Below, piece by piece: positions 7,557 to 22,321 of a stretch of 22,395 bases of DNA. The stretch covers positions 1 through 22,395 of the IMG/VR virus record IMGVR_UViG_3300046305_000009. One strand, 5' to 3'. The notes below the pieces were generated by a model. The model saw nothing but the letters and a program-made list of their open reading frames with translations, did no database searches and was not told the origin of the DNA. Origin of the DNA: a virus. Both the position numbers and the translations under genes were made by a program. The first letter of the stretch is position 1, and each line of letters starts with the position of its first letter.

Positions 7557-8052
7557 GCTGTACAGCCTTAAATGCGCCGCCAGCAGCAGCCGTCATTAGT
7601 GGTGCTAATAAGTTATCAACACTTCTAAATCGCGTATATTGAACGCTGTAATTGTCGTATTCAACTTCAATAGCACCAACTTTTTCACGCTTAATGCCTT
7701 GCGTTAAATCAGGGGCTAGATTGCCTTGAGCGGCTTTGTATGCCAATTCAGCCGTTGCCTTAATAACTAATGTTGGTATTGTTGTGCTTGATACTTCGTA
7801 ATCGTTTAAATATGCGCCAATACGAGGCCACGATAGCGCTTGCATTGCACTTACCCTGCGGCCTTTGAATATGCCTCCGTAAACCTGCTCAAAGTAATCA
7901 CTAGCGCGTCTTAATGCCTGTTCTTTTTGTTCAGTATTTAAAGAAGCCCACGGCGCACACCCTCTTAGGCTATGCCATGAGTCAGCATAGGCAACCGAGC
8001 ATAACGTTTCGCTTGTTGCACTACCAGTGCCAGTTTCAAGGATTATTGCCAT
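7549..8052 (-). CDS. Head-tail adaptor with DnaT-like ssDNA-binding-type domain
   Basis: This 167-residue protein matches the DnaT-like head-tail adaptor pattern: N-terminal ETGTGSATSETLCSVAYADSW (small residues, then A-Y-A-D), a helix with NTEQKEQALRRASDYFEQVY, then GRRVSAMQALSWPRIGAY, where Q-A-L-x-W-P-R is the clearest hallmark, and a helical middle with KATAELAYKAAQG. These proteins bind below the portal; the 'DnaT-like' label reflects a family match and not replication work. It starts at the stop of the repeat protein (overlap of one base), consistent with its place in the connector cluster. Confidence 0.8.
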   Translation of the reverse strand: MAIILETGTGSATSETLCSVAYADSWHSLRGCAPWASLNTEQKEQALRRASDYFEQVYGGIFKGRRVSAMQALSWPRIGAYLNDYEVSSTTIPTLVIKATAELAYKAAQGNLAPDLTQGIKREKVGAIEVEYDNYSVQYTRFRSVDNLLAPLMTAAAGGAFKAVQRV

Positions 8053-9560
8053 TATGGATAAGTTCTTTCAATGTTTGTTAATGGGTAAAACACTTCAACG
8101 CCTTCAAGTGGCCTAGTGTCTGCGCCTGTTAATGCGTATGTTTGGCTAACTCCCATAATGGGATAATCACAATCAATGCCAGAAAGCGGATATTTGCCAA
8201 CAACTTTGCCATTAATGCTTAATGTGCCTTGCACATAGCTTGCATCACTCCCACTAAGAGCTGCGCTTAATGCGGACGCCAACTGGCCTTGCGTTATTGA
8301 TATGCTTTGTCCTGTCAACGGCACATCAATGATGCTTTGAATGTCAGCCGTTAAGTTGCCTTGTGTTAAGCCGTTCTGCTCACCACTTAATAACCTTGTA
8401 ATTGCCGCGCCAAAATCAGACTGGCTAAACAAGCTTACTAATGCGCTTAATTGGCTACCAATGCTTTTAGATAGTGAACCTTGTGCAATTGTTTCGCTTG
8501 CGCCTGTTAATGCCTTGCTTGCTGTAGCCTTTACTTGCCCTGTTGCTTGCGTTTGAGTTACAGCCGATAGTAGCACACTAGCAACTGATTTAATCGCACC
8601 TTGCGACACAGCTATAGCTTGTCCTGTTAGCTGTACTAGCGTATCCAAGCTAGGCGTTAATGTGCCTTGCGACTGCGTTTCATTTTGCCCAGCAAGTGCT
8701 TTGCTATTGTTTGCTGTGAATGCACCATTTTGCACAGTTTCTAACAGCGCACTAATAGCTTTATTAATTGTTGACGCTAATATCCCTGCGCTAACAGTTT
8801 CGACTTGTCCTGTCGCTGAAACTGATTGCGTATTGCCTAATGTTCCTTGTGCTTCAGTTTCCGCTAAACCTGATAGCGATTTTGCGTTTGTAGCAATTAA
8901 TGTGCCTTGCGTATAGCTATAAGACTGCCCTGTTAAACTGACAAATATAGGCGCTACAATGTTAGGCGTTAAATCGCCTTGCGTTATGCTGCCAAATATG
9001 CCTGTAATAGCTTTGCTAATGCCAGCAAACAATGTGCCAGCACTTTCACTTTGCGTTTGCCCGCTTACAACAACTGTTTGTAGTTTGCTTACATCGCCTT
9101 GCGATTCTGTTTCGTTTAATCCGTTTAGTAATGTTATGCCATTAACACTTAAAATGCCTTGCAATCTTGACTGTGATTGTCCTGTTAATGCTATTGAGTT
9201 TGTCGAGCTTAAATTGCCTTGCGTGTAAGAATATGACTGCCCTAATAGCGCCACCAATATAGGGGCTACAGTATTAGGCGTTAGGTTGCCTTGCGTAATA
9301 CTTTGCGTGTTAGCTGGTATAACATTGCTTGCATTGGCTATTACATTGCCTTGACTTATAGCATAATTCGCACTAAGTATGCTTGTTATTGCTTGTTTGG
9401 CTAACTGCCCTTGTGTTAATGCTACGCTACTGCTTGCAATATAGGCATTAGAAACTGTCGCCAAATTGCCTTGTGTTGCAGTTGATGGTATACCTGATAA
9501 TGCGACTGTTATTGCAGCCGTACCACCTCCACCAGCCCTAAATAATAGTAATAGCGACAT
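8052..9560 (-). CDS. Repeat-rich virion surface protein with 20-residue repeats
   Basis: This 502-residue protein begins MSLLLLFRAGGGG, a start seen in phage repeat proteins of this genome position. Residues 13-446 consist of 21 units of mostly 20 residues, with consensus [LVIF]-x(7)-[AS]-L-[TS]-G-x(6)-[TS]-Q-G-x. Every fifth unit has a two- to four-residue insertion beginning LTPN or LTA, giving a super-repeat of about 104 residues. Residues 457-502 change to a roughly ten-residue repeat with Y-P-L-x-G. The sequence is rich in Gln, Ser and Thr and almost free of Cys and charge, as in fibrous beta-repeat proteins. It lies between probable decoration proteins and the connector genes. A fibre or head/neck surface role is inference; no enzyme motif is visible. 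Confidence 0.8.
   Translation of the reverse strand: MSLLLLFRAGGGGTAAITVALSGIPSTATQGNLATVSNAYIASSSVALTQGQLAKQAITSILSANYAISQGNVIANASNVIPANTQSITQGNLTPNTVAPILVALLGQSYSYTQGNLSSTNSIALTGQSQSRLQGILSVNGITLLNGLNETESQGDVSKLQTVVVSGQTQSESAGTLFAGISKAITGIFGSITQGDLTPNIVAPIFVSLTGQSYSYTQGTLIATNAKSLSGLAETEAQGTLGNTQSVSATGQVETVSAGILASTINKAISALLETVQNGAFTANNSKALAGQNETQSQGTLTPSLDTLVQLTGQAIAVSQGAIKSVASVLLSAVTQTQATGQVKATASKALTGASETIAQGSLSKSIGSQLSALVSLFSQSDFGAAITRLLSGEQNGLTQGNLTADIQSIIDVPLTGQSISITQGQLASALSAALSGSDASYVQGTLSINGKVVGKYPLSGIDCDYPIMGVSQTYALTGADTRPLEGVEVFYPLTNIERTYP
8055..8192 (-). repeat. C-terminal ten-residue YPLxG repeats
   Basis: Residues 457-502 of the repeat protein contain five short units: YPLSGIDCD, YPIMGVSQT, YALTGADTR, PLEGVEVF and YPLTNIERT. 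They differ in length and consensus from the 20-residue units before them. Confidence 0.7.
8223..9560 (-). repeat. 21 tandem 60-bp coding repeats (20-residue TQG units) with a five-unit super-repeat
   Basis: Unit ends (the residue after QG) fall at 32, 52, 72, 92, 116, 136, 156, 176, 196, 220, 240, 260, 280, 300, 322, 342, 362, 382, 402, 426 and 446. The long units begin at residues 93, 197, 301 and 403, so a higher-order repeat of 104, 104 and 102 residues is present. At the DNA level the plus strand shows recurring TTGCCTTGCG-like blocks. Confidence 0.85.
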
Positions 9561-11303: not shown

Positions 11304-12104
11304 CTATTCATAGTTTTGTAATTCACGCATTTTTTGCCAATTAGGGTATGTAGGTGAATTAATCCGAACATTTACCCCTGATACGCTCATAGCATGGGCT
11401 TGTGCAATATATTTTAAGCTATCAAATTCAACGCCATCAACTGTGTATTTGTAAGGAATGCCCTTTTTAACTTTTGTTGAAAGTGTGTAATCCACATCGC
11501 CTTTTGAATTGTAATATCGTTTTTTTGCCACATTGTAATTAATGCCCAACTGTCTGCACCAGTTAGGCAACGTGTCGGTAACGCCTTCGCGTGTTATCAC
11601 AATGTTATTGCGTTTGTTATTAGACTGCTCGACAAATGATGCCCATCTGCAATTTTCTTTTGAGTAATTTAATGAGTTATCAATACGCTCAATAGAATGC
11701 CCTTGAGTTGGCGGCTCGCCCATGTCAGCTAGAAAGTTTTCAAAGCTTTCTTTCCATCTATCACAAACCGTTATACCGCGACCACCATAGTCAGCGTAAC
11801 GACTATCTTTTTGGTAGTAGCATCTCCTTTTCATGGCAGACCATGTGTAGTAGACCTTAGGAACATTTAATCCATTATGTCCTGACAGCCCATGAGTTTT
11901 TTTAGCTGCTGATTTTCTTTCTTTCGTACAAATTTTGCAGCGCGTTACATTGCCAGCTTTTAAGTTTATCTCATCTGCGATGTGATAATTTCCACAAACG
12001 CAGTTGCATTGCCAAAAAGTTAATTGTGTTCCGCCTTTAGATTTTCTTGTGCTTCTTTCAATAACTGTTAGCAATCCAAAAACATCGTCTTTTTGAACCT
12101 TCAT
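11304..12104 (-). CDS. HNH homing endonuclease, free-standing
   Basis: This 266-residue protein has three parts. An N-terminal zinc-finger-like region carries C33, C35, C37, C56 and C59. A central HNH nuclease has YYTWSAMKRRC at 85-95, YGGRGITVCDRW at 106-117, SIERIDN at 137-143 and NCRWAS at 151-156, followed by a conserved N163 region. Two C-terminal DNA-binding repeats of the NUMOD/HTH kind lie around 173-207 (PNWCRQLGINYNVAKKRYY) and 221-260 (GVEFDSLKYIAQAHAMSVSGVNVRI). Such enzymes cut DNA at specific sites and spread their own gene among phages. It splits the usual link between capsid gene and following head genes, and it has its own apparent promoter and translation control hairpin, as expected for a mobile gene. 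Confidence 0.92.
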   Translation of the reverse strand: MKVQKDDVFGLLTVIERSTRKSKGGTQLTFWQCNCVCGNYHIADEINLKAGNVTRCKICTKERKSAAKKTHGLSGHNGLNVPKVYYTWSAMKRRCYYQKDSRYADYGGRGITVCDRWKESFENFLADMGEPPTQGHSIERIDNSLNYSKENCRWASFVEQSNNKRNNIVITREGVTDTLPNWCRQLGINYNVAKKRYYNSKGDVDYTLSTKVKKGIPYKYTVDGVEFDSLKYIAQAHAMSVSGVNVRINSPTYPNWQKMRELQNYE

Positions 12105-12177: not shown

Positions 12178-13191
12178 TCAATTAGTTACTAAAAAGGCAA
12201 TCGGCACTTGTTTGCGCTCATCAAATACACGAGTCCAGTTACTTACAGCTTGCAACTCTGCTAGTGTTGGTGTAACGCCAGCAACTGAGGTTGAGTTAAA
12301 TGCGTAGCCAAATGGATGTAATAACCATGTTTTGCGAGAATGTAATACTTCTACGCCGCCGCCGTTTCCTTGAGCCTCTTCACGATTTACTGCAACTGGA
12401 TTAGGGTGTGAGCCTTCACCATAACCAAACGCTCCAGCACCATATAAAACGCTTGTATATTCCAGCAATGTAGATGTAGCGTTGGTAACAACAGGCATAC
12501 CATCATCAATAATAATACGTTTGCCTAAGAATGTTGGGACAAGTAACGAGCCGTTACTGTCTTTGATAAAATCAATATCATCATTATCAATCATGCGTTT
12601 GTAGATATTTGAATGCACGGCAATTGCGCCTGTGTTTTCGTAGCTATCGCCTAGCGTGAAAGCCGCGCTGGTAAAGTTTGAGCGTGTAAAGCCGTTAGTT
12701 GCCGCCGCAGCGCCTGCTGTTGTACGAGCCGCATTAAACACCATATCACCGCCATTGCCAGCAATGTTATCAGCAAGTAAGCCGCGTGTGGTTGCAATTA
12801 AACGAGCTTGCAATTGACGAGTCCAGTATTCATCTACACGGCGCGCAATGCGCTGCATTGGGTCGCTTCCTGCTATCTCGCCAGTTAAATCAGCCGTTGA
12901 CCATGAGTTATTTACGTATGCAATACGTGCAATTTGGTCGCCTGCACTTACTTTTGCAGGAACGGCTAAAAGTGCAGGGTCGTCACTTGAATAATTAGGC
13001 TCACTATTAGCCAAATCCTTCCAAAAAGGGAGGTCAACAATACGCCCGCCGCTATTAGCTTTAGCGTTAAGAGCTGCGTTTGTAGTGATGATGCCTGAGT
13101 CGTAAAATGCTGTTTTTTCTGCTGTATTAACAGCCATGTAGTCTAAAAATACTTTTGGTTCGATAATGTCGGTTAAACGTGATAATGCCAT
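12178..13191 (-). CDS. Major capsid protein
   Basis: This 337-residue protein lies directly after the scaffold gene, in the canonical position of the head shell subunit. The start (MALSRLTDIIEPKVFLDYMAVNTAEKTAFYDSGI), a long polar loop region, MQRIARRVDEYWTRQLQARLIATTRGLLADN around 113-143 (spine-helix-like), a GDSYENTGAIAVHSNIYKRM segment and the late RKTWLLHPFGYAF segment fit the coat proteins of this class, which probably have the HK97 fold. No N-terminal protease-type delta domain is seen in this chain; the separate scaffold serves that role. The ATG at 13191 lies 14 bases after the scaffold stop, with AAAGGAAAC before it, consistent with high expression. Confidence 0.9.
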   Translation of the reverse strand: MALSRLTDIIEPKVFLDYMAVNTAEKTAFYDSGIITTNAALNAKANSGGRIVDLPFWKDLANSEPNYSSDDPALLAVPAKVSAGDQIARIAYVNNSWSTADLTGEIAGSDPMQRIARRVDEYWTRQLQARLIATTRGLLADNIAGNGGDMVFNAARTTAGAAAATNGFTRSNFTSAAFTLGDSYENTGAIAVHSNIYKRMIDNDDIDFIKDSNGSLLVPTFLGKRIIIDDGMPVVTNATSTLLEYTSVLYGAGAFGYGEGSHPNPVAVNREEAQGNGGGVEVLHSRKTWLLHPFGYAFNSTSVAGVTPTLAELQAVSNWTRVFDERKQVPIAFLVTN

Positions 13192-13204
13192 GATTTAGTT
13201 TCCT

Positions 13205-13837
13205 TTAAGTTGACGCGGCTTTTAATGCCTCGTATTTGGTCGGGTCAGAACGAAATAGCGCAGTGCGCTCATCGCTGCCCATATCTTTAAATGCCTTATT
13301 TGTTGCGTTTTGGTTTCCTCCTTGCGCGCCGCCGCCATTGTTATTTGGTGCTGCTACAAAGTGTTTACCTTCATCTGTAGTTGCCCACTCTTTTAAGTGT
13401 TCGCTAATAGGCTTATCGCCTACCATTGAAATGCGAACGCCGTCTTTAGTAACAACTTGAACTTGTGCTGCTAGCATCGCCTTTGCAGCTTTTAAATTAA
13501 TCGCATTCGTTACGTTAATGCTTGCCAAGCCTTCTGTTAAATCTCGCTCGCGTTGCATATTAACTGTGACTTGAGACTCTGTCTCAAGCGTTTTAACTGC
13601 TTTGTCGCGTTCTTCTGCAAGTTTTTTAGTTTGCTTATCTGCATCAGCTAACTTAGTCTTAAAGGCTTCATTTTCAGCTTGCAATGCGCTGTAGTCGTTT
13701 GGGTCAATTGTTTGGCCTTTCCGTAATTCCGCTTTTGCTTTTGTTAAATCTGCTTTTAAACCGTTGTTCGTATCTGTTAGAGCCGTCATTGACTCGGTCA
13801 GCTCTGTAACTTTTGCTTGTAATTCTTCTAACGTCAT
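13205..13837 (-). CDS. Capsid scaffolding protein
   Basis: This 210-residue protein is strongly predicted coiled coil from about 1 to 105 (LEELQAKVTELTESMTALTD, ADLTKAKAELRKG, LADADKQTKKLAEERDKAV), then has a short folded part (INLKAAKAMLAAQVQVVTKDGVR), a Gly/Asn-rich linker (PNNNGGGAQGGNQN) and a C-terminal helix (MGSDERTALFRSDPTKYEAL). This layout, directly before the capsid gene, is that of phage scaffolds that guide procapsid assembly and then leave. The leader before ATG 13837 is unusual: three evenly spaced hairpins, with GAAAGG seven bases before the start. Confidence 0.85.
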   Translation of the reverse strand: MTLEELQAKVTELTESMTALTDTNNGLKADLTKAKAELRKGQTIDPNDYSALQAENEAFKTKLADADKQTKKLAEERDKAVKTLETESQVTVNMQRERDLTEGLASINVTNAINLKAAKAMLAAQVQVVTKDGVRISMVGDKPISEHLKEWATTDEGKHFVAAPNNNGGGAQGGNQNATNKAFKDMGSDERTALFRSDPTKYEALKAAST

Positions 13838-15658: not shown

Positions 15659-17049
15659 TATAACAACCCTGTTAGCGTTTCTTTCTCACTATCAAGCGCT
15701 GCTGTATAGTCATCATAAACAATCTTTTCGCTTAGTATTTCACCGCGTTTAAGCGCATGAAATAGCTCTTCTTTAGGGATAGCGCCTGCTTGCCATGACT
15801 TAACAATAGCGTCTAAATCTTGACTGGTCATTGCTACAGGCAAGAAGTCTGTAGATAGCTTGATGCTTATTTCGCCATCAATGCCAGCCCATTGTGCGAT
15901 AAACTCAAGCATATCCTGTAAGTTTTGTGATACTAGATTAGCCATTGAAGCCAATACGCTAGTTTCACCATTAGAACGCATTAGCAATGTTGCTGCTGCT
16001 TCTACGCCAGCTTTATCAGGGGCTAAGAACCTAGCGCCAATAGCCGCCATTTGCGCCTCTTTAAGCTTTAAGTTATCCAGCAAAGCGCCTAAGCCTTGCC
16101 CTGTAAACTCTAAAAATCCCCATTTTGCGTTAGGGTCTGGACTTGTAATTGCCCCCGCGCTACCAATTCTAACGACTTCGTTATCACCAAATGTGAAGCC
16201 TGCCAATATAGGCGTAGGCAAGCCAGCAAAATGACATCCGCGCTCGTAATCAGCATTAACGCGGTAATGCGCCAAGTTTAAATCTGCTAACGGTTCTATT
16301 GGAGGGGCTTTTAGCTTGAGGCTGTTTTCTTTTGCGCCAAACGCCCAAAATGGGATAAAGCCAATAGGCGCATTATTCATTAATGGTGTAATAGTTTCAA
16401 CCAACACCCACTTATTGCCTTTGTCTATCTTGCGGTATATCTCTTGTAGATAAACACCATCAATCAATAGCAATGCGCGTATTTGTGGCTCTTGCTTATA
16501 TTCAAACTCGTTGATTTTGGTTTCGTGCGTTTCCATCAACTTAACCATGACAGGCTGCATAACGTTATTAATGCGCTTTTCTTTCCAGTCTAAAATTGAC
16601 TCAGCAGTATAGCCAGACACATACGGGCGCAAGTTTAATGCGCTAGCTATTGCCGCGCTTGCAGGCTGTTCGCTTACTGCTGGATACTCAACAAGCAATC
16701 CATAACGCCCAGTCTCTACAACTTCACGCATGACGTGCATAGCCATGCCTTCAATAGGCGTGCCAGCTATGTCTATATCGTCAATAACAGACTGTAGGCC
16801 AGCAGGAACTTTCACTTCCAGCCGCTTGCGAAACACCATGCCAACTAATCCGTCTAGTGTACGACCAGCAGCATTAAAGTATGTAGCACGCAGCTTATAT
16901 GAGTTGTAATCGTCTACAGTTTGACCTGTTAGCCTTGGCAAAAATAGCTCACCGCCTGCATGTGCGGAAGACTGCCCTGCGCAAGCAGCGCGACAACGTG
17001 CCCACTTTTGCGCGTATCCGTCATAGTGTTGGTGAGTGTTATCGTTCAT
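15658..17049 (-). CDS. Portal protein (DUF4055-like)
   Basis: This 463-residue protein follows TerL, the usual place of the portal, the ring through which DNA enters and leaves the head. The sequence fits the DUF4055 portal type: after a short N-terminus it has GGELFLPRLTGQTVDDYNSY, then ATYFNAAGRTLDGLVGMVFRK at about 75-95, RYGLLVEYP, a middle with PIGFIPFWAFGAKENSL, HYRVNADYERGCHFAGLPTP, and a tunnel-loop region with GFLEFTGQGLGALLDNLKLKEAQMAAIGARFLAP. The C-terminal part contains acidic helices. ATG 17049 overlaps the TerL stop (ATGA). Confidence 0.9.
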   Translation of the reverse strand: MNDNTHQHYDGYAQKWARCRAACAGQSSAHAGGELFLPRLTGQTVDDYNSYKLRATYFNAAGRTLDGLVGMVFRKRLEVKVPAGLQSVIDDIDIAGTPIEGMAMHVMREVVETGRYGLLVEYPAVSEQPASAAIASALNLRPYVSGYTAESILDWKEKRINNVMQPVMVKLMETHETKINEFEYKQEPQIRALLLIDGVYLQEIYRKIDKGNKWVLVETITPLMNNAPIGFIPFWAFGAKENSLKLKAPPIEPLADLNLAHYRVNADYERGCHFAGLPTPILAGFTFGDNEVVRIGSAGAITSPDPNAKWGFLEFTGQGLGALLDNLKLKEAQMAAIGARFLAPDKAGVEAAATLLMRSNGETSVLASMANLVSQNLQDMLEFIAQWAGIDGEISIKLSTDFLPVAMTSQDLDAIVKSWQAGAIPKEELFHALKRGEILSEKIVYDDYTAALDSEKETLTGLL

Positions 17050-18287
17050 AAGCCTAATATAGCTATTCGTTGTGTGTGTGTAATAATCGGATATTTATAA
17101 GCAATAAAATATGTAGCAGCGTCAATCACATGATCTAATCCGCTTGACTTGTCAGGATCGCCGCTCTTGTCGTATGCCTGCTTCTCGACCGACTCAGTTA
17201 ACGCAGGGCAAGCATCTGTATTAACGTACAACCTACGCTTACCATTGCTGTTAATCATTGCATTAGTCGCCAATACGCGGTCTTTAATCGCGGGGTTACG
17301 ACTATTAACCAATACTGTAAATTTAGCTTGCCTTAATATGCTTAAGTCTGACTCACTAGCATTATTGCTTTTACGCGCATTGCCGCTTGCATCAGGGTAT
17401 ATATAAATTGCATGGTTAGGGTAACGCGCCTTTATAACCGCACACATAGCAGGCGTGTCAAATACGTCTGTAAATTCATGCACAGCATGTGGGTTAGTAT
17501 CACGCAACACATAAACAACTGCTGCCATTTTGGTAACGTTAAAGTCTAGCCCTATGTGTAATGGCTCGTTATTTTCGATAACTGTATTGCAATAATTAAG
17601 CGCTCTATCAAATTCAGCATAGACGCTGCCAGCCGTTAGGTTGACAAACTCACCATCTAAATAAGCTGCTAATAAATTAGTTGAGTACGTGTTTTGTAAA
17701 TTCTTAATGTAATCATCTGGCAAATTGGCAGCGTTATCGCTAGTTTTAGCTTTATATAGCTCGTAGCCTTCTGTTTTATTCTTTTGCCACCTGTCATAAA
17801 CAAATCTAAATCCTTCAGGCGTTGTTGCTACTGCTACAGTATTGGCTACCTTTTTACCGCTTGCAGTAAATGCTTTTTGTCTATTACGCGCGATTACCTT
17901 ATTCCAAACATCACGCGCCTTGTCTGTCGGTAATGTGTCTAGCTCGTCAATCAAGCTATGGGCTACTTCATACCCAACTATTCGCGATGGGTTATCCATT
18001 GTGCGAAAGATAATATCGCCAATATCTGTTTGCATTGTAGCTTTTTGCTGATTAAGCTTATAGTTCAATCCTAGCCGTTCAAACATAGCAGGAAACCGCT
18101 TGTAAGCAATATCCTCTACCAAACCATACGTGGGCAAGTAGTATGCTACGTCTTGATTGGGGCATAAGCGCTTTAATCGCATTATGCGAGCTATGCCTGC
18201 TGCTGTCTTTCCGCTACCAAATCCACCACAAAAAGCAGGGAATGGCGCTTTAGAGTAAACAAACGCTTCTTGCGATGGTGTAAACAT
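17046..18287 (-). CDS. terL: Terminase large subunit (packaging ATPase and nuclease)
   Basis: This 413-residue protein has both terminase domains. The ATPase has Walker A GGFGSGKT at 21-28, a Q-motif-like start (PSQEAFVYSKAPF), Walker B SLIDELD at 111-117 (D114, E115) and a coupling-type VAVATTPEGF at 151-160. The RNase-H-like nuclease has GLDFN at 246-250 (D248), IYPDASG at 296-302 (D299) and GLDHVIDAATYF at 383-394 (D385, D389). It cuts concatemer DNA and drives it into the procapsid. The start abuts the TerS stop with no spacing. All catalytic residues expected for the family are present, so it should be active. Confidence 0.95.
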   Translation of the reverse strand: MFTPSQEAFVYSKAPFPAFCGGFGSGKTAAGIARIMRLKRLCPNQDVAYYLPTYGLVEDIAYKRFPAMFERLGLNYKLNQQKATMQTDIGDIIFRTMDNPSRIVGYEVAHSLIDELDTLPTDKARDVWNKVIARNRQKAFTASGKKVANTVAVATTPEGFRFVYDRWQKNKTEGYELYKAKTSDNAANLPDDYIKNLQNTYSTNLLAAYLDGEFVNLTAGSVYAEFDRALNYCNTVIENNEPLHIGLDFNVTKMAAVVYVLRDTNPHAVHEFTDVFDTPAMCAVIKARYPNHAIYIYPDASGNARKSNNASESDLSILRQAKFTVLVNSRNPAIKDRVLATNAMINSNGKRRLYVNTDACPALTESVEKQAYDKSGDPDKSSGLDHVIDAATYFIAYKYPIITHTQRIAILGL

Positions 18288-20128: not shown

Positions 20129-20490
20129 TTCATCCCCTCAGTTAAATAATTTTCAATTGCGTTTTTAGCATCTATCCAATCATAGCAAACAATTGTCAGT
20201 GCGCCTGCATTGTTAGCAATTAATTGAAATGCTAACTGCCCATCTGTTAATTTGTTAACGCCGTATTTCATTTCAATATACATACCAGTAAAGCCTTTTC
20301 TTGCAACTTCCATGCGTAAATCCCAAATACCAGCCCTAACGCCTTCACTTTTTAATACTGCCCCTGTAAGTGCCGTTCTTGCGCCACCGTTAGGGATTGC
20401 AAATAACGCATTAATTGGCAAGTTAAATTGCTTATGCCCTGCACTATCCCACCATGATATTAATGCTTTTTGATGTTTAGACTCACTCAT
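20125..20490 (-). CDS. VRR-NUC domain nuclease
   Basis: This 121-residue protein is a single VRR-NUC-type PD-(D/E)xK nuclease. Visible motifs are ESKHQKALISWW at 3-14, FAIPNGGARTALTGAVLKSEGVRAGIWDL at 30-58 (I-P-N-G-G, then G-x-x-D with D57) and YIEMKYG at 71-77 (E73, K75), followed by Q85 in LTDGQLAF. The order G-x-x-D...E-x-K...Q is complete. These enzymes cut branched or flap DNA; in phages they occur in recombination and replication clusters. Here it lies between a Ref-like nuclease and unknown genes, overlapping each by four bases. Confidence 0.88.
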   Translation of the reverse strand: MSESKHQKALISWWDSAGHKQFNLPINALFAIPNGGARTALTGAVLKSEGVRAGIWDLRMEVARKGFTGMYIEMKYGVNKLTDGQLAFQLIANNAGALTIVCYDWIDAKNAIENYLTEGMK

Positions 20491-20786
20491 AGCTTACCCT
20501 CTAATAACTTTTTAGTTTCCATGATTAAACTTTCCTGGGTACCATATTTAGCCTCAAACCTACGCTTAAACGGATGAATTGCTATCATATTCTTATCGTT
20601 GCCTGTTCCGTCTTGGTGATGCCCTGCACATAGCGCAATTACTTTCATGTGCGCGCTTTTTTTAGTGCGACCGTCGCAATGATGTATTGATACTAGCATA
20701 TTTCGATAGCCGTCAATGCGACAAGCAATGCAGCCTAATTGCGCTATAGCATCCCAATACTTTTTCTCGGCTTTAGTCGGCGTCAT
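20487..20786 (-). CDS. Ref-like (RecA-dependent nuclease family) HNH protein
   Basis: This 99-residue protein matches the phage P1 Ref-type nuclease core: LGCIACRIDGY (C19, C22), IHHCDGRTKKSAHMKVIALCAGHHQDGTG (H35, H36, C53, H56, H57) and IAIHPFKRRFEAKYG (H71). The four Cys/His pairs would bind zinc and the H-H of the GHH segment gives the HNH active site. Family members cut DNA in RecA-dependent fashion or act in recombination. It overlaps the Ntn hydrolase stop by 14 bases and the VRR-NUC start by four, so the three are one transcription unit. Confidence 0.8.
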   Translation of the reverse strand: MTPTKAEKKYWDAIAQLGCIACRIDGYRNMLVSIHHCDGRTKKSAHMKVIALCAGHHQDGTGNDKNMIAIHPFKRRFEAKYGTQESLIMETKKLLEGKL

Positions 20787-21219
20787 TGTCTAATGTAAAA
20801 AAATCATAGCCATTACCACAGTCTCTAGATAATGTATTTGTCATCTCAACGGCTTGTATAGCGGTAAGCCCGCATTTCATACATGCTAACGCAAAATCCT
20901 GCCCTGAGCCAAATGCCATTTTTTCATCTAATAATTTAATTGGTGTATCTAAATGGCTGTATTTATAAATCCCTGTTTTGTCTATCGCGATGCAATAGGC
21001 ATGAGAATTTTCAGCATGTCCGTTTTCAGGATATTCATCGCCATATACGAGATGTCTTACTATTTTCATACCAGTTACAGCGTCGCCAGTGATTCCCAAT
21101 AACGTAGCAACTCCATTAATATTGGCTTTAAATATTTTATTTGTGGTTTGTTTTAATGAATATTGCGTAGCAAGCCTATCTGCTGCCAATGTTTTTCCAT
21201 CCCATGCTATTACTGTCAT
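20773..21219 (-). CDS. HslV/proteasome-like Ntn hydrolase
   Basis: This protein has 148 residues from ATG 21219; a GTG at 21228 would add three residues and block the N-terminal nucleophile. The start MTVIAWDGKTLAADRLAT follows the Ntn threonine pattern: removing Met leaves Thr as N-terminus. Aligned with HslV and proteasome beta subunits, T2, D14 (of AAD) and K28 (NKIF) match the T1, D17 and K33 triad, and MAFGSGQDFALACMKCG at 101-117 matches the GSG loop with its serine. RDCGNGYDF (132-140) could give the last conserved Asp. It is therefore a probable peptidase. It lies in the nin-like block between NinB-like and Ref-like genes; no partner ATPase is seen here. Confidence 0.8.
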   Translation of the reverse strand: MTVIAWDGKTLAADRLATQYSLKQTTNKIFKANINGVATLLGITGDAVTGMKIVRHLVYGDEYPENGHAENSHAYCIAIDKTGIYKYSHLDTPIKLLDEKMAFGSGQDFALACMKCGLTAIQAVEMTNTLSRDCGNGYDFFTLDNDAD

Positions 21220-21265
21220 AAATAACACTTTAAATAACTGTTATGTTGATAAAAAATAATATTTG

Positions 21266-21625
21266 TCATTCTATCCAGCATCCAATCTCACTAGCCCACC
21301 GCCCAATGTTATCTTGATATTCTGCCATCTCTTTTGTATCTAGCTTAGTTGTTGATTTAATAAACTCTTGTACAATACCATTGACTGATTTCTGATAACG
21401 CAAATACTTGTATCCCATAAGTTGATGAACCTCCTCTGCATCAATGCCTAAATGTTCTGCAAGTGTTTTGTAAACATGCCCCCATAATCGGCTATTTTGG
21501 TCAATACTGCGCTTGCTTTTCTTAGGTTTGACGCTGACATGCCAAATAATTGTTGGTGCTAGTGCGTCTAGTTTAGCATTTAAACCAGCGCGATTGTGTG
21601 GCATTAAATCATATTCTATGTTCAT
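21266..21625 (-). CDS. ninB: NinB-like recombination protein
   Basis: This 119-residue protein shows the NinB (lambda Orf) pattern: IIWHVSVKPKKSKRSIDQNSRLWGHVYKTLAEHLG at 26-60, with R-S-x-D-Q-N-x-x-L-W/G as the hallmark, then the helical AEEVHQLMGYKYLRYQ and a C-terminal EFIKSTTKLDTKEMAEYQDNIGRWASEIGC. NinB binds single-stranded DNA and stimulates recombination in place of host RecFOR. The ATG overlaps the stop of the membrane protein (ATGA). Neighbouring nuclease genes strengthen the recombination assignment. Confidence 0.85.
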   Translation of the reverse strand: MNIEYDLMPHNRAGLNAKLDALAPTIIWHVSVKPKKSKRSIDQNSRLWGHVYKTLAEHLGIDAEEVHQLMGYKYLRYQKSVNGIVQEFIKSTTKLDTKEMAEYQDNIGRWASEIGCWIE

Positions 21626-22293
21626 TTAAATTTGCGCTTAAATATTACTGCTAATCCACTTATAAACAGCCATATACTAGCAGGTAGAGGCGTTTCCATT
21701 GGCTCTTTAACGTTCACTAGCGGATTATCTTTACAATGCCATGCGCGTGAATTTAAGCACAGAATAGGCGCAGATTGGACTAAGTAATTGCCATTAGCAA
21801 TGCCATTAAAGCCACCATTAAAGCTTGCTACAGCATAGCTAGCATTTACATAATTACTTGCAAAGTTTGTCATTTGAGACGGATGCACAAAAAATCTATC
21901 AAGCGTACCGCCCAATTTTGCGGGCGCAGTAATATCAGGTAACTTTTCTACAAATATAGTTTCAACTGGTGTAATTGTGCATAAAGGCTCTACAATCGCA
22001 GGCTTAAATTTGTGCTTCTTAACTTTTTTTGCTTTAATCGGCGTCTTAGCAACGCAAGCGCTTTGTTTTTCATATTTAGTAAAGCAACTTTCTACGCATG
22101 ATTTTAAGCCTAATGTTTGCGCGTTAGATCTTGTTGATATTACAAACAATGAAAGCGTGACAAGCAATATCATAGATCCCCTATAGAAATATTTATTTAT
22201 GCTTACTTGCCATTTTCTTTCAATTCCAATCCCAAAAAACACACCACTTAACCATGCCATAGCAATTGAAATCAACATTTTTTCTATTCCCAT
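21622..22293 (-). CDS. Membrane protein with PEP-CTERM-like C-terminal sorting signal
   Basis: This 223-residue protein has two N-terminal hydrophobic segments, 5-24 and 41-53, the second followed by a possible signal peptidase site (RSNA-QT, 55-60). A Lys-rich stretch (84-98) and six Cys outside the N-terminus (66, 70, 80, 105, 179, 187) come next. The last 23 residues, TPLPASIWLFISGLAVIFKRKFK, match the tripartite PEP-CTERM layout: a P-x-P type motif (PLP), a hydrophobic helix, then basic residues. The PLPAAVWLF variant is known from methylotrophs and other gram-negatives. Such tails are sorted by exosortase to the cell surface. ATG 22293 has AAGGA six bases upstream. An internal ATG at 22173 follows AGGGGATCT and would give a form starting at the second hydrophobic segment. 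Confidence 0.7.
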   Translation of the reverse strand: MGIEKMLISIAMAWLSGVFFGIGIERKWQVSINKYFYRGSMILLVTLSLFVISTRSNAQTLGLKSCVESCFTKYEKQSACVAKTPIKAKKVKKHKFKPAIVEPLCTITPVETIFVEKLPDITAPAKLGGTLDRFFVHPSQMTNFASNYVNASYAVASFNGGFNGIANGNYLVQSAPILCLNSRAWHCKDNPLVNVKEPMETPLPASIWLFISGLAVIFKRKFK

Positions 22294-22321
22294 TTTCTAT
22301 CCTTAATATCTAATAATGTTT

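Follow-up and report, generated by a model that had tools for sequence, protein, structure and literature searches.

The window analysed here, a 22,395-base virus record, encodes on its minus strand a terminase, a portal and a major head protein, as expected of a tailed phage, together with a 223-aa predicted secreted or membrane protein that carries a VPLPA-type PEP-CTERM-like tail (21622..22293, minus strand). In the best reading of this gene, which we consider probable, it is a phage accessory gene for an exosortase-type surface protein that is co-expressed with the ninB recombination block.

The 223-aa open reading frame (ORF) has the C-terminus EPMETPLPASIWLFISGLAVIF-KRKFK followed by the stop codon; the protein sequence ends in TPLPASIWLFISGLAVIF-KRKFK. 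The tail proper (PLPASIWLFISGLAVIFKRKFK; residues 202-223, 21625..21690, minus strand) consists of PLPA (residues 202-205), a hydrophobic core of 13 residues (SIWLFISGLAVIF; residues 206-218, 21640..21678) and a basic end, KRKFK, that is predicted from the sequence to be cytoplasmic (residues 219-223, 21625..21639). An earlier note on this DNA had described PLPASIWLF, a hydrophobic helix and KRKFK at the C-terminus, at 21622-21696 (residues 200-223 plus the stop codon), and the ORF translation is exactly as claimed there. A helix spans residues 205-221 in a low-confidence AlphaFold model. A PLPA/PEP motif, a hydrophobic helix and a basic cluster are thus all found at the extreme C-terminus. 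The core is the shortest of those compared: it has 13 residues, whereas the cores of 25 bacterial tails span 14-17 and those of 18 phage tails 15-16.

This short core is among the features that would also suit an ordinary inner-membrane protein, such as a lysis-timing or DNA-injection-blocking factor, in which the C-terminal helix and basic end serve as a stop-transfer anchor, PLPA is coincidental and no exosortase is involved; others are the profile scores, which lie under cut-off, and two N-terminal hydrophobic segments, like those of small phage membrane proteins. We judge this explanation unlikely, as PLPASIWLF matches over nine residues and is spaced roughly as expected from the basic C-terminus, motifs of this kind are concentrated in exosortase-bearing genomes, and their occurrences on phage contigs are either complete sorting tails or noise outside such a context.

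When the whole protein was compared with the 18,950 models of NCBIfam, the only matches were TIGR03370 (VPLPA-CTERM; 16.6 bits, E=0.006, cut-off 25.35) and TIGR02595 (PEP_CTERM; 9.4 bits, E=2, cut-off 16), both at the extreme C-terminus. With the 32-aa tail alone, the E-values were 3e-4 for TIGR03370 and 0.08 for TIGR02595, and PF07589 matched at 14.1 bits (E=0.05, cut-off 20.7). The profile search of the C-terminus proposed in the earlier note therefore returns all three models, each with a score under its curated cut-off. As none of these cut-offs is reached, we call the protein PEP-CTERM-like and keep it out of TIGR03370. What holds of the claim of a phage-encoded PEP-CTERM tail is that a PEP-CTERM-like tail of the VPLPA type is present on a phage gene, and that tails of the same kind recur in phages (discussed below); the sub-cut-off matches stop short of formal membership.

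The low TIGR03370 score is weak counter-evidence on two grounds. Among 10 bacterial proteins with the same C-terminal motif, all from genomes with an exosortase, two scored 28.6 and 32.3 bits and eight gave 11-20 bits or no match; a sub-cut-off score is therefore normal for the WLF subtype. In addition, when 51 virus records were searched in six frames with TIGR03370, the window came first (19.2 bits, 4.6e-5), with a runner-up at 10.4 bits. A profile made from 25 bacterial tails gave 34.6 bits for the window and at best 9.3 bits for the other 13,397 phage ORFs (13,398 in total), a comparison that is partly circular because the 25 tails were chosen by a pattern derived from the window's own motif. 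Chance, that is, a random hydrophobic C-terminus that happens to resemble the motif, could be argued from the modest full-length E-value of 0.006. We consider it very improbable: the sole NCBIfam matches are sorting-tail models at the extreme C-terminus, the window is a clear outlier among the 51 virus records, a comparable tail is absent both from the other records and from the rest of the 13,398 phage ORFs, and the reversed pattern described below matches only two genomes.

In bacterial genomes, the motif tracks exosortase. We sampled 274 gammaproteobacterial genomes, all of the class to which a terminase-bearing Burkholderiaceae MAG belongs; 92 of the 274 have a PF09721 exosortase. A DNA pattern for PLPA[AST]xWLF was present in 28 of the 274, and 24 of these 28 have an exosortase: the pattern occurs in 24/92 exosortase-bearing versus 4/182 exosortase-free genomes (Fisher p=2.7e-9, uncorrected for kinship). 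A reversed-pattern control matched 2/274 genomes. Nearly all of the bacterial pattern matches inspected are C-terminal tails, and one, L290, is an identical PLPASIWLF tail in an exosortase-bearing genome (G193).

No exosortase was confirmed in viral contigs in a scan with two short patterns, from which we infer that the host would supply the enzyme. Of 10 genomes with a related terminase, only two have an exosortase, which counts against the preferred reading. In the nearest of them by terminase (G001), the exosortase adjoins its own PEP-CTERM partner and so may be part of a dedicated pair. Naming the host through the terminase was attempted and rejected: the matches lie in Burkholderiales and other betaproteobacterial genomes and are too distant for a host to be assigned.

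The ORF at 21622-22293 looks real, since a Shine-Dalgarno-like AAGGA (22300..22304, minus strand) precedes the ATG at 22293 and the stop codon overlaps the start codon of ninB. At 22173, an internal ATG has a Shine-Dalgarno-like site of its own (AGGGGA, 22177..22182, minus strand), which suggests that two forms, of 223 and 183 aa, may be made. Translation from this internal ATG would give the signal peptide MILLVTLSLFVISTRSNA-QT: residues 41-58 (22120..22173, minus strand) form a signal-peptide-like segment, MILLVTLSLFVISTRSNA, followed by QT as a putative signal peptidase I-like end. If translation starts at the first ATG (22293), an additional hydrophobic segment (residues 5-23, 22225..22281, minus strand), present only with this start, lies ahead of the signal-like segment at 41-58, an arrangement that is unusual among PEP-CTERM proteins.

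The body of the protein holds six cysteines (residues 66, 70, 80, 105, 179 and 187) and is not resolved by single-sequence AlphaFold (mean pLDDT 45), which places helices at the N- and C-termini only. Whole-protein homologues were found neither in INPHARED or PHROGs nor in IMG/VR or the GTDB genomes, the latter two having been scanned with exact 8-residue patterns that detect close relatives only. A body without a homologue counts against the PEP-CTERM reading; as a rule, PEP-CTERM proteins show little homology beyond the tail (PMC1569441). In related phages, the position adjoining ninB is occupied by other genes. This, and the absence of a detected relative of the body, fits an accessory gene.

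The tail gene stands upstream of three genes of the recombination block, all on the minus strand: a NinB/Orf-type recombination mediator (21266..21625), an HslV-family (Ntn-hydrolase) peptidase-like gene (20773..21228) and a Ref-like RecA-dependent nuclease (20487..20786). The terminase large subunit, a phage hallmark, follows (17046..18287, minus strand). Because the stop codon of the tail gene and the ATG of ninB overlap (ATGA), these two genes are probably translationally coupled, and the gene order makes expression ahead of the virion proteins likely. The earlier note placed the gene in a delayed-early block among recombination genes; its position in a same-strand block with ninB, the HslV-like peptidase and the Ref-type nuclease supports this placement, and the term delayed-early is drawn solely from gene order.

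These neighbours also bear on whether this is a host gene that the phage has picked up, as a moron or as transduced cargo, encoding a recently acquired PEP-CTERM protein that serves the host only and has no role in infection. Such an origin is compatible with the tail as a sorting signal and differs from the preferred reading as to the beneficiary. It would account for a body without phage relatives and for the other neighbours of the related ninB genes, and PEP-CTERM proteins have been described from bacteria (PMC1569441). The pattern scan, however, gave no bacterial relative, the ATGA overlap couples the gene to ninB within a phage operon, its G+C content resembles that of the adjoining genes, and similar phage proteins recur; we therefore regard this origin as somewhat unlikely.

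Two other genes of the window deserve mention. The product of 11304-12104 (minus strand), which adjoins the major head protein gene, is a possible homing-endonuclease-like protein with a weak match to the I-TevI DNA-binding domain, and 8052-9560 (minus strand) encodes a 502-aa protein with degenerate LTGQSxSxTQGxL repeats and no Pfam match.

Similar tails recur on phage contigs. The PLPA[AST]xWLF pattern is present in 70 IMG/VR contigs. The matches comprise at least 34 complete PLPAxxWLF tails (a hydrophobic run and a basic end, preceded by an open frame of at least 60 residues), many of them near-copies of each other, two that are cut (L226 and L249) and 35 that are out of context. Most of these phage-contig tail proteins begin with a signal-peptide-like stretch, and several exceed the TIGR03370 cut-off (two genes of L190, and L188, L244, L197 and L209, with 32.2 bits in each of the last two). 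Phage genes are found on the same contigs: terminase, RecE-type exonuclease and integrase on L190; T7-like DNA polymerase, primase-helicase and ribonucleotide reductase on L197; a head/protease gene on L227; and primase on L244. Some tail-bearing IMG/VR contigs may include host DNA; about 10 were checked, among which L392 has no phage-family match. A tblastn search of INPHARED isolates returned no such tail, using short queries whose matches the BLAST low-complexity filter may hide.

A second pattern, VPEPxTWAM, occurs in at least 120 IMG/VR contigs, with 107 of the 124 matches listed passing the tail test; some of these tails are near virion structural, tail fibre, helicase or endolysin genes. 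Proteins of this type are abundant on L313-L432, where a family beginning ATLQIEVFDNGTLIDN recurs on many contigs. Two further observations concern individual contigs. On L190, a temperate-phage contig, two consecutive PEP-CTERM genes (12449-13795; 29.1 and 31.3 bits) lie downstream of the integrase and resemble lysogenic-conversion cargo. The T7-like contigs L197, L201, L208 and L209 encode, between nuclease/replication genes, a protein of 94-102 aa with a strong VPLPA-CTERM tail and no obvious signal peptide.

Under the preferred reading of an exosortase-type surface protein, the product would be exported through its N-terminal signal sequence, presumably by the Sec route, and the C-terminal PLPASIWLF...KRKFK helix would keep it spanning the inner membrane. 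A host exosortase acting on VPLPA-type tails would recognise PLPA at the periplasmic face and cut the tail near it, and the cysteine-containing body might then be passed to the outer surface or matrix. These export, retention and cleavage steps follow the published PEP-CTERM/EpsH model (PMC1569441), and for the tail protein they are a proposal. Production would probably take place alongside the ninB/Ref recombination genes, ahead of the virion proteins, as the gene order suggests. The likeliest benefit would be an altered surface of the infected cell that excludes other phages or changes adhesion or the matrix; superinfection exclusion, biofilm change and receptor masking, as suggested in the earlier note, are plausible candidate effects, as is a changed matrix.

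A single gene of this kind is a modest find; that similar tails recur across phage contigs is of greater interest. The dozens of other phage contigs with similar tails suggest that phages may borrow host machinery to alter the surface of the infected cell. We tentatively extend this to a wider proposal, which may or may not hold: that genes for exosortase substrates are common in both temperate and lytic phages of exosortase-bearing Gram-negatives, and that these phages, during infection or lysogeny, rely on the host sorting enzyme to reshape the cell surface or the matrix, for instance to keep other phages out. If phages do repeatedly carry such substrates, superinfection exclusion and control of the matrix become possible roles for PEP-CTERM proteins, and phage genetics would offer a way to test what these tails, whose purpose is poorly understood, are for.

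Studies of exosortase/PEP-CTERM systems have dealt with bacteria, where the systems are linked to the formation of exopolysaccharide and flocs, and no report of phage-encoded PEP-CTERM proteins was found in the open-access literature searched, the coverage of which is incomplete. With the VPLPA-CTERM (TIGR03370) and PEP-CTERM (TIGR02595, PF07589) exosortase substrates of Gram-negatives, the window protein shares PLPA, a hydrophobic helix and a basic end at the very C-terminus, as well as a putative N-terminal export signal and a body without homology. Unlike them, it is phage-encoded, scores under cut-off and has a core 1-4 residues shorter than those of the compared tails. The PEP/VPLPA-CTERM proteins of other phage contigs (L190, L188, L244, L236, L197/L209, L376 and others) likewise have exosortase-type tails on phage contigs, but their bodies are different, being mostly those of Gly/Ser/Thr-rich secreted proteins, and the proteins of the T7-like L197 and L209 have no obvious signal peptide. 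In Gram-positives, prophage-encoded LPXTG surface proteins are known, such as SasX of Staphylococcus. There, as proposed for the window, a phage gene and a host sortase would together lead to display on the cell, whereas the enzyme and the signal are unrelated and the site of display is the Gram-positive cell wall.
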